NCBI GenBank assembly: GCA_019637095.1
Contig: JAHBWG010000041.1
Span: forward strand, 1 to 64,000
Reading direction: 5' to 3'
Length of the DNA: 64,000 nucleotides
Source: Sandaracinaceae bacterium
GTDB taxonomy: Bacteria; Myxococcota_A; Polyangia; Polyangiales; Sandaracinaceae
How positions within the stretch are numbered: position 1 is the stretch's first letter; each line of letters begins with the position of its first letter. Made by a program: the position numbers and the translations under genes. The notes beneath the pieces were generated by a model, which was given only the letters and a program-made list of their open reading frames with translations, was not told the origin of the DNA and did no database searches. Positions 33,977 through 35,968 of this stretch are shown here, piece by piece.

Positions 33977-34061
33977 CCTCACGGGGCGGCGCAGTCGGTG
34001 GGCGATGCGCTCGCCGCTGCCCCGAGGCCCGCGCCGAGCGCGCAGACGAGAGGAACCGACG

Positions 34062-34817
34062 ATGACCGAACCGACCTACACCCCGGGCATGTTCGTGTGG
34101 CGCGAGCTGAACGTCCCCGACCTCGACAAAGCAAAGGGCTTTTACGGTGAGCTCTTCAATTGGGCCTTCGAGGACGTGCCGATGGGCGACTTCGACTACC
34201 CGATGATCAAGGCAGGCGATCAGGCGATCGGCGGCATGATGAAGATGGAGGGCGCCGAGCACCCGCCGCACTGGATGAGCTACGTCTCGGTCGAGGACGT
34301 CGACGCGTCGGCGAAGGCCGCCGCCGCGCGCGGCGGCAAGGTCGCGGTCGGCCCGATGGACATCCCCAACGTCGGCCGCTTCGCGGTCGTCGGGGACCCG
34401 GACGGCGCGTGGGTGACGGTGTTCCGCGCGGCGCAGGGCGACCCGGCCCCCGGGCAGATGCCGGGCCTGGGCACGTTCTGCTGGGAGACGCTCAGCGCCA
34501 ACGACCTCGCGCGCGCAGAAGCGTTCTACGCCGAGGTCGTCGGTTGGAGCGTCGGGCCTGGGCCCGGCGGCCCGGACAACCACGTGTTCAAGGTGGGCGA
34601 GGTCGCGGTCGCCGACGTGCAGAAGGCGCAGAACATGCCGCCGAGCTGGGCGACCTACGTGGTCGTCGCGAACCTCGCGGACGCGCACGCCAAGCTGACG
34701 AAGCTCGGCGGCAAGACGTTCCTCGAGCGCTACGACGTCCCCGGCGTCGGCGGCATCGGCTTCTTCGCCGACCCGCAGGGCGCGATGCTCGGCCTGTTCG
34801 AGCCGTCGGCCGGTTGA
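34062..34817 (+). CDS. VOC (glyoxalase/bleomycin-resistance) protein, two domains
   Basis: The 251-residue protein comprises two tandem vicinal-oxygen-chelate modules. The first has GMFVWRELNVPDLDKAKGFY, GGMMKMEGAEHPPHWMSYV and FAVVGDPDGAWVTVFRA. The second has GTFCWETLSANDLARAEAFY and FFADPQGAMLGLFEPSAG. This arrangement matches the VOC subgroup annotated in actinobacteria and myxobacteria as hydroxylase-like or glyoxalase-like, with no established substrate. The ATG at 34062 follows AGAGGA and begins directly at the domain. Divergence from a TetR gene suggests induction by a small molecule, perhaps an electrophile. Confidence 0.86.
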   Translation: MTEPTYTPGMFVWRELNVPDLDKAKGFYGELFNWAFEDVPMGDFDYPMIKAGDQAIGGMMKMEGAEHPPHWMSYVSVEDVDASAKAAAARGGKVAVGPMDIPNVGRFAVVGDPDGAWVTVFRAAQGDPAPGQMPGLGTFCWETLSANDLARAEAFYAEVVGWSVGPGPGGPDNHVFKVGEVAVADVQKAQNMPPSWATYVVVANLADAHAKLTKLGGKTFLERYDVPGVGGIGFFADPQGAMLGLFEPSAG

Positions 34818-34874
34818 GCTCCCGTCTGTCGATGGATCGAGCGCGGACGCGCCCGACGGCGCCGTTCGAGGCCA

Positions 34875-35015
34875 GGCCATCGCGCAGCGATGGCCGTCGG
34901 CCGAGGGGGCCCCATCGCCCCGCGATGGGGTCGAACGCGGCCCCGCCGCGTTCGGACTGGGGAAGGGGCCCCGCTGCGGCTTTGCCGCAGCGGGGGAGGG
35001 GTGCGAAGCACCCCT
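34875..35015. repeat. array of five consecutive perfect stem-loops
   Basis: Five perfect inverted repeats lie within 141 bp between convergent genes: 34875-34895 (9-bp stem, loop GCA), 34910-34930 (9 bp, loop CCC), 34932-34954 (9 bp, loop CCCCG), 34969-34995 (12 bp, loop TTT) and 34997-35015 (8 bp, loop GAA). The first two share the arm core CCATCGC/GCGATGG. The fifth contains GCGAAGC and the first GCGCAGC, members of the exceptionally stable GCGNAGC DNA mini-hairpin class. The array may terminate transcription from both sides, stabilise RNA ends, or bind a protein in extruded form. No coding frame is evident here. Confidence 0.9.
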
Positions 35016-35023
35016 CAGCCAAC

Positions 35024-35803
35024 TCAGTGCACGACGATCGAGAGCTGGCCCGGCTGCGAGGCCGCGACGCGGAGCGTCCCGAGGGCCGCCTGGATGCAGC
35101 CCTCGGCCGCGCTCCCCGCCATCTCCGGGGGCAAGGCCACTTGCACGATCCCCTGCGCCGTCCAGCGCAGCGTCAGGTTGACCATGGGCTGATCCACGCA
35201 GCTCAGGATCGCCTCGCGCTGCTGCTGGAGCTGCGCCGAGAGCGCGGCGGTCTCCTGGCCCCCCTGCGCCGCCGTCGGCTCGACCGCGACGCCACCGCCG
35301 TAGCCGGGCGGGGGCGCGCCGCCGCCGCCGACCGCGCCGGTCATCCCCCAGCCGCACGCCGCGCCGTTGCACCCCATCTGGAAGGTGCCCTGGCGCCCGC
35401 AGCCGGCGGCGAGCCGCACGTTGGGCGCCTGGGTGAACTGCTGCTGGATCATCTGCGGCGCGCAGCCGAGCAGCGGCGCGGCCTGCTCGTTCAGCGTCGG
35501 GATGCGGCGCCACTGGCAGTTGCGACCTCGCCGCACACAGTGCAGCCAGTACTCCATCGGCACGGTGCAGCCCGTGACGGTGTAGACACCGGGCTCCTGC
35601 CCGATCTGCATCGGCGTCAGCTGCCCCGGGTGACAGCCGGTGTCGCGCGCGGCGAGGCGGATCAGGCTCTCCTGGTAGCGCTGACCGCGGCCCGCGTCGC
35701 GGACGACGACGGTGTGGCGGCGGCCGCACCCGAGCGCGGCGGTGACGGTGAGCGCGGCGAGGGCGATCATCGCCACCCGCCAAGCGAGGTCCTTCGTAAT
35801 CAT
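35024..35803 (-). CDS. lipoprotein with AgmX/TonB-like C-terminal domain
   Basis: The 259-residue product starts MITKDLAWRVAMIALAALTV and has a lipobox ending AALGC. The mature part has a Cys-containing N-terminal domain with three similar segments (DTGCHPGQLTPMQIGQEPGV, GCAPQMIQQQFTQAPNVRLA, FQMGCNGAACGW) and then a Gly/Pro-rich linker. The C-terminal module reads AILSCVDQPMVNLTLRWTAQ followed by GIVQVALPPEMAGSAAEGC. That module follows the AgmX/TonB-type pattern (helix with Cys, strand, Cys, strand) common in myxobacterial envelope proteins. I start at the ATG at 35803, which opens the signal; an upstream in-frame ATG would add 55 polar residues across the regulatory region. Function is unknown. 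Confidence 0.7.
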   Translation of the reverse strand: MITKDLAWRVAMIALAALTVTAALGCGRRHTVVVRDAGRGQRYQESLIRLAARDTGCHPGQLTPMQIGQEPGVYTVTGCTVPMEYWLHCVRRGRNCQWRRIPTLNEQAAPLLGCAPQMIQQQFTQAPNVRLAAGCGRQGTFQMGCNGAACGWGMTGAVGGGGAPPPGYGGGVAVEPTAAQGGQETAALSAQLQQQREAILSCVDQPMVNLTLRWTAQGIVQVALPPEMAGSAAEGCIQAALGTLRVAASQPGQLSIVVH

Positions 35804-35871
35804 CGGCGTGTGCTCCTCGGCTTCGCGCGACGGTGCGCGCACAGCGTGACCGCCCCCGAGCGAAGGTCGTG

Positions 35872-35898
35872 CCACGGATGATGAGTCTATCACCGTGG
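35872..35898. promoter_or_regulatory. imperfect inverted repeat upstream of the AgmX-like lipoprotein
   Basis: CCACGGATGAT (35872-35882) and ATCACCGTGG (35889-35898) pair over ten positions with one bulged A and a 6-base loop. It is the AT-richest point between the lipoprotein start and the epimerase stop, about 70 bp before the lipoprotein start. It could be an operator or a terminator for the epimerase transcript. The evidence is symmetry alone. Confidence 0.35.
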
Positions 35899-35968
35899 TG
35901 TCAGAGGGGGGAGATCGTGGCTCGCCGGGCGTATCCGCGCGTTTCCGATCGTGAACGCGCGGTCGCAC

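Follow-up and report, generated by a model that had tools for sequence, protein, structure and literature searches.

An array of five hairpins in a Sandaracinaceae bacterium that looks like a new small mobile DNA family hiding at gene ends

Bacterial genomes often carry small palindromic repeats, whose spread is poorly understood. Bacterial MITEs, RUP, the modular BOX elements and Correia-type repeats are non-autonomous, insertional and polymorphic between relatives. The systems closest to the array described here are the REP/BIME repeats and their TnpAREP enzymes, exemplified by the E. coli and Stenotrophomonas REPtrons (PMC2817692, PMC8266576), and the GTAG/CGTC-tagged palindromic repeats, which are single tagged palindromes of 20–40 bp whose termini can give a flanking ORF its stop codon (PMC3733652). 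TnpAREP-type HUH/Y1 enzymes act on single-stranded hairpins and cleave at CT (PMC8266576). Like REP/BIME, the present element is high-copy, intergenic, palindromic and non-coding, its pairing is kept by double changes, it expands in tandem and mosaic form, and its CT junction recalls the TnpAREP cleavage dinucleotide. Unlike REP/BIME, it is about 200 bp long, consists of five different hairpins in a fixed order and orientation, and lies in a strict register with stop codons. Like the tagged repeats it can end up supplying a stop; unlike in them, the stop at the element is in most cases either a TGA native to the gene or one rebuilt from (G)AG. In the open literature (subscription papers lay outside the scope) we found papers on REPs and no description of this family.

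The window is the whole stretch of 64,000 nucleotides of contig JAHBWG010000041.1 that was analysed. A sequence-only reading of it had pointed to five exact inverted repeats within about 141 bp between convergent genes, and a perfect-palindrome search of the window, along with the coordinates of the two flanking ORFs, bore this out. The minus strand is the sense strand of the element, and the locus is laid out as follows:

35024–35968, minus strand: host gene, a 314-aa ORF with no Pfam family
35024–35026, minus strand: TGA stop of this (right-hand) gene, in the register seen in most copies
34826–35023, minus strand: whole element, from an alignment of 43 copies
35017–35023, minus strand: spacer GTTGGCT from the stop codon to the first hairpin, from the copy alignment
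34996–35016, minus strand: hairpin 5, first after the host stop codon, 9-bp stem GAGGGGTGC-TTC-GCACCCCTC
34969–34995, minus strand: hairpin 4, 12-bp stem CCCCGCTGCGGC-AAA-GCCGCAGCGGGG
34932–34954, minus strand: hairpin 3, 10-bp stem CGAACGCGGC-GGG-GCCGCGTTCG
34910–34930, minus strand: hairpin 2, 9-bp stem CCCCATCGC-GGG-GCGATGGGG
34870–34902, minus strand: hairpin 1, 9-bp stem GGCCATCGC-TGC-GCGATGGCC at 34875–34895, plus a bulged outer stem
34870–34873 paired with 34899–34902: bulged outer stem of hairpin 1, GGCC/GGCC
34826–34869, minus strand: 3' portion of the element, conserved less well and closing with TCGACAG, from the copy alignment
34005–34817, plus strand: convergent neighbour, glyoxalase/bleomycin-resistance-like, whose stop at 34815–34817 bounds the far side

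The 5' end of the element, at 35023, immediately follows the host stop codon, and its 3' end, the conserved TCGACAG (CTGTCGA on the plus strand), lies 8 nt from the stop codon of the left gene. A composition-based gene finder puts the start of the host gene at 35803. All five stems are perfect, with 3-nt loops and a GC-NNN-GC centre, and together span 142 bp; the stem lengths first reported (8, 9, 9, 9 and 12 bp, with loops of 3 or 5 bases) hold to within about one base, the 5-nt loop being unneeded. The arm core said to be common to two hairpins is that of hairpins 1 and 2 (CCATCGC/GCGATGG). The GCGNAGC mini-hairpin centres, also singled out, are not conserved among the copies: sister copies have other loops in the same stem, for example TTG-TTC-CAA and CTG-TTC-CAG.

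The window has a G+C content of 75%, and isolated palindromes of 8–10 bp are found throughout it, which could make the array a chance cluster of palindromes. Five non-overlapping stems of at least 8 bp were observed in the 163 nt of the array, as against none in 18,998, one in 983 and two in 19 of 20,000 dinucleotide shuffles of the same sequence. The density is thus beyond what GC content explains, as the sequence-only reading had maintained. Folding the array gives z-scores of −5.6 for RNA and −7.2 for DNA, no second hairpin cluster of comparable kind was seen elsewhere in the window, and an Rfam scan of the window gave no family at gathering score. Given that no shuffle exceeded two stems, and given the dispersed copies and the covariation of the stems described below, we consider the chance explanation to have a negligible probability.

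The genome from which the window comes (G000; 9.25 Mb in 197 contigs) was queried with positions 34860–35022. The query yielded 40 scored copies, full or nearly so, of 83–96% identity in both orientations, besides partial and tandem ones; near-full-length copies number about 47, and a sequence profile made from the 40 copies picks up at least 150 places. A homologous array (TGAGTTTGCGGGAGGGGTCTTGGAAGACCCCTCCCCCCGACCGGCAAAGCCGG...) has at least 46–49 matches per genome in G001 (10,327,335 bp) and G006, which both belong to a single other genus within the family and are together termed g2. The search of the whole genome and its relatives that had been suggested from the sequence alone accordingly revealed an array that is dispersed in the former and has related arrays in the latter. 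The consensus, written as the minus strand of the window, begins CTGAG-TTTGCGG-(GAGGGGTTG TTC CAACCCCTC)-CCCC-hairpin 4 and continues hairpin 3-A-hairpin 2-...-hairpin 1-..., with TCGACAG terminal in complete copies. The defined end of the copies is (C)TGAG-T(T/C)TNCGG-hairpin 5, the foot being mostly TGAG followed by TTTGCGG, TCTTCGG or CTTGCTG. In all aligned copies the hairpins keep one order and orientation, and the element as a whole is a run of five consecutive GC-rich hairpins of about 160–200 bp that encodes no protein.

The pairing of the stems is conserved across this family, contrary to the lack of conserved pairing that the sequence-only reading had named as refuting. In 40 copies 96.9% of cells pair, and double changes are seen at 15 of the 51 pairs of the stems. 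Doubly changed cells number 111, as against 38.9 in shuffles, none of 500 shuffles reaching the observed count, and a control in which partners were slid by 1–3 columns gave at most 7. For instance, the arm tip of hairpin 5 reads TGC/GCA, TTG/CAA or CTG/CAG in different copies, and hairpins 4 and 1 likewise display compensatory arm switches in other copies. One-sided G-U intermediates are rare in the stems, which fits pairing of DNA, correction templated by the opposite arm, or RNA; hence the covariation shows that palindromes are kept, and not in which molecule they pair. Some of the compensatory changes could also come from template switching between arms, with no selection involved.

The most conspicuous feature of the copies is their position relative to genes, which were called from ORF length and GC3 and not from annotation. 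In 36 of 43 G000 copies a GC3-periodic ORF on the sense strand ends, in one fixed register, with the TGA that borders the element, and a second script found 39 of 45 following a GC3-supported stop. An independent set that was not used to define the family has 14 of 16 at a stop, both exceptions being inner tandem copies, and for the homologous array of G001 and G006 the count is 54 of 70. When all sets are pooled, 107 of 131 copies begin a few nucleotides from a GC3-supported stop, typically as TGA, 8–9 nt and then a hairpin. Counted from the stop, the AGGGG of hairpin 5 lies most often at 8 nt in G000 and at 8–9 nt in G001/G006, with a minor peak at 13–15 nt where a second CTGAG-like motif comes after the stop. 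Copies without an adjoining stop are nearly all intergenic.

Such adjacency might arise from a short DNA target (CTGA/CTGAG) combined with purifying selection alone, with no special link to gene ends. Of 53 G000 host genes, 50 have a C just before the stop, as against 48.5% of all TGA stops, and the composition-based gene finder makes CTGAG a gene stop at 67 of 121 non-coding sites elsewhere in G000; with the pentamer alone, roughly every second non-coding insertion would already fall on a stop. However, the corresponding figure at the elements is 25 of 27, which indicates an excess of stops beyond a plain pentamer target. Further, the preference for C is absent in G001/G006 (37 of 54 hosts as against 65%), TGAG, TGAC and TGAT all occur at the empty target sites, and truncated element ends are likewise fused to stops (L207, L209 and L211), which favours something more than the terminal motif of the element itself. 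In light of this, we would give the short-target explanation a little less than an even chance.

To compare filled and empty sites we took 24 host genes of G001 and G006 and sought their orthologous sites by the 3' ends; 23 were found and aligned. This comparison covers only the related family of these two genomes. At 21 of the 23, the occupied site has no array in the sister genome, where the end of the host gene and its stop are conserved. The remaining two sites (L083/L133 and L073/L134) are filled in both g2 species and differ by clean internal losses of hairpins, suggesting that individual hairpins can drop out of the array. In L086/L127 the insert immediately follows ATCTGA. At two sites the stop itself changes upon insertion, from CTC-TGA to CTC-TAG in L101/L131 and from GCG-TGA to GCG-TAG in L082/L141, and in L095/L129 the inserted copy provides a TAG one codon ahead of the stop of the sister; in all three the new TAG comes from the element. 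The alignment of L091/L140 is too poor to place the junction. At the aligned empty sites, where the far-side junctions are ragged and the right junctions ambiguous, there was no constant target-site duplication, and the consensus displays no terminal inverted repeat. The element shares the non-autonomous insertional polymorphism of MITEs, RUP, BOX and Correia-type repeats, with which it is compared here in general terms, and appears to differ from them in both these respects. Taken together, these observations suggest, with a probability of roughly 0.85, that the array is a mobile, stop-codon-docked repeat, namely a non-autonomous and protein-less interspersed element resembling REP/BIME repeats or MITEs. 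Since the two sister genomes offer numerous sites with and without the element and the stop-codon rule is sharp, its choice of target is directly testable. A strong block of hairpins just behind many stops may also alter mRNA 3' ends between close relatives.

The same observations bear on the proposal that the array is a functional transcription terminator or a module for 3'-UTR stability, which recombination would have multiplied and selection would have kept behind the genes that need it. Its fixed position just after stops, the great stability of the hairpins and their conserved pairing would all suit such a role. Nevertheless, the sister species lacks the array at 21 of 23 sites, inner tandem and intergenic copies lie away from stops, and no run of T follows any of the five stems in the window on either strand, as would be expected of an intrinsic terminator; beyond the insert of L072/L125 there is still a hairpin whose tail is rich in T. 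Nor are the hosts enriched for convergent neighbours (16 of 30, as against 130 of 301 baseline genes). The direction of the neighbour makes no difference and the convergent setting at the window locus is therefore incidental. The bidirectional terminator between convergent genes envisaged in the sequence-only reading is not supported as the reason for the array. On balance a terminator or stability module appears improbable as the account of the array.

To return to the array as a mobile repeat, among 379 Myxococcota genomes the exact pattern is frequent only in G000 (47 times), G006 (19), G001 (13) and the Myxococcota MAG IP29b_bin.34 (G035; six), with single matches in three others; the reversed pattern, used as a control, gave 0 in G000, G001, G006 and G035. 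In a public-genome scan that may leave out near relatives of the window genome, the layout of CTGAG, spacer and hairpin is also seen in this MAG and once in Prado145. At one "empty" site (L097/L143) the sister carries a different array. This second array family (CTGAGTTNCCCGGGGGAGGCTGCGCGCCTCCCC..., for example L239–L262) has 28–29 matches per genome in G001 and G006, as against 0 in G000. Its distal hairpin, GCTGCGCGCGGG...CCCGCTTGC, is common to it and the first g2 family. Of 23 distinct fetched copies, 17 lie 2–11 nt behind a gene stop, with a mode of 5–6, and five of the other six are inner tandem copies. These could be members of a Myxococcota superfamily of multi-hairpin elements, in which several families with different first hairpins follow the same docking rule, the insertion machinery is directed to stop codons and the element ends rebuild the stop. 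We put this forward as a tentative generalization with less than even odds; were it true, gene 3' ends would be a genome-wide safe harbour.

The REP/BIME-like element offered by the sequence-only reading remains the closest of the options it listed, in as much as the array is a dispersed repeat with conserved structure; REP tags and BIME alternation are absent. A structured RNA and a cruciform read by a protein, also on that list, are conceivable roles of the array. A stronger version of this idea would have the array as a true REP/BIME family in an unusual composite form, mobilised by TnpAREP (RAYT). The element is indeed high in copy number, dispersed and extragenic, its palindromes are kept by compensatory change, RAYT-like genes are present in the genome, REP termini supply TAG stops (PMC3733652), and TnpAREP cuts at CT (PMC8266576) where the junction here is CT|GA. 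Yet in place of a single palindrome of 20–40 bp with a GTAG or CGTC tag at its foot there are five different palindromes and neither tag; the fixed order and orientation leave no alternation of REP and iREP with conserved spacers as in BIMEs; and no rayt gene lies between two inverted copies of the repeat in G000, G001 or G006. As the tags that define REPs are absent, we do not file the element among them. It departs from them in length, in the count and constant order of its hairpins and in its sharp gene-end register, and has neither GTAG/CGTC tags nor RAYT flanking; we therefore regard it as a palindromic interspersed repeat other than REP, and a true REP/BIME family seems unlikely, if less so than a terminator.

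RAYT-like genes number five clear cases in G000 and six in each of G001 and G006, where their products match NF047646 below its cut-off; these Y1 proteins, of about 300–430 aa, are longer than that model (the long G000 ones are C140:63903, C155:47446 and 48578, C62:733 and C150:8047). No copy of the element was seen beside a RAYT-like gene (PF01797/NF047646) in these three genomes, and such genes are equally common in relatives that lack the element. Given this lack of flanking and of co-distribution, a link to RAYTs is only plausible. An autonomous version with a transposase was not found. One IS200-type gene (C132:37703) is about 0.7 kb from a copy, which may be chance at such a copy number; its own ends look different, and the IS200 copies of G000 have ends unlike those of the element. 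As in the single-strand transposons of the IS200/IS605 group, insertion appears to occur beside a short constant motif at the base of a subterminal hairpin, with no terminal inverted repeat; unlike them, the element has no tnpA, five hairpins and an ill-defined far end.

As to how the mobile repeat might spread, copies would be made as folded single-stranded DNA by an enzyme acting in trans, most plausibly a HUH/Y1 transposase of the RAYT/IS200 type. To judge from its sequence, the CT|GA junction appears compatible with TnpAREP cleavage at CT, and cleavage at this dinucleotide, together with single-stranded hairpin substrates, suits both the junction and the lack of terminal inverted repeats. 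We would nonetheless wager somewhat against a trans-acting HUH enzyme as the mover, and offer it as a provisional candidate. Insertion would take place at or next to T|GA or CT|GA, the GA(G) or AG borne by the element would restore a TGA or TAG stop, and selection would keep mainly the harmless insertions at gene ends. Any effect on the host mRNA, such as 3' end stability, termination or ribosome release, would probably be secondary.

A few further observations concern the surroundings of the copies. In G001 the copies are co-directional with replication in 19 of 32 cases, under a guessed origin, as the GC skew of the fetched pieces did not place it; the count says little about strand bias. 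Locus-specific tandem repeats with units of 18–65 bp and up to 9 copies are seen just beyond the g2 copies L077, L083, L087, L090 and L095; overall such repeats lie behind 9 of 45 copies as against 4 of 45 control stretches, a weak difference. In MAG IP29b_bin.34, locus L150 (about 2480–2600) has units GCTGAGTTTTTGGAGGGGCTGGCCGCAGCC joined head to tail, a pattern that would arise if later copies had used the CTGAG of earlier ones as their insertion site. The module of hairpin 1, the distal hairpin, is found alone in tandem with units of about 60 bp at G000:C13:93102–93571, G000:C115:43364–43850, L024, L021 and L034. Finally, some copies coincide with contig ends or come within tens of bases of them (G000:C67:2–83, C115:64 and C133:2–65), and the repeat therefore probably breaks the assembly of G000.
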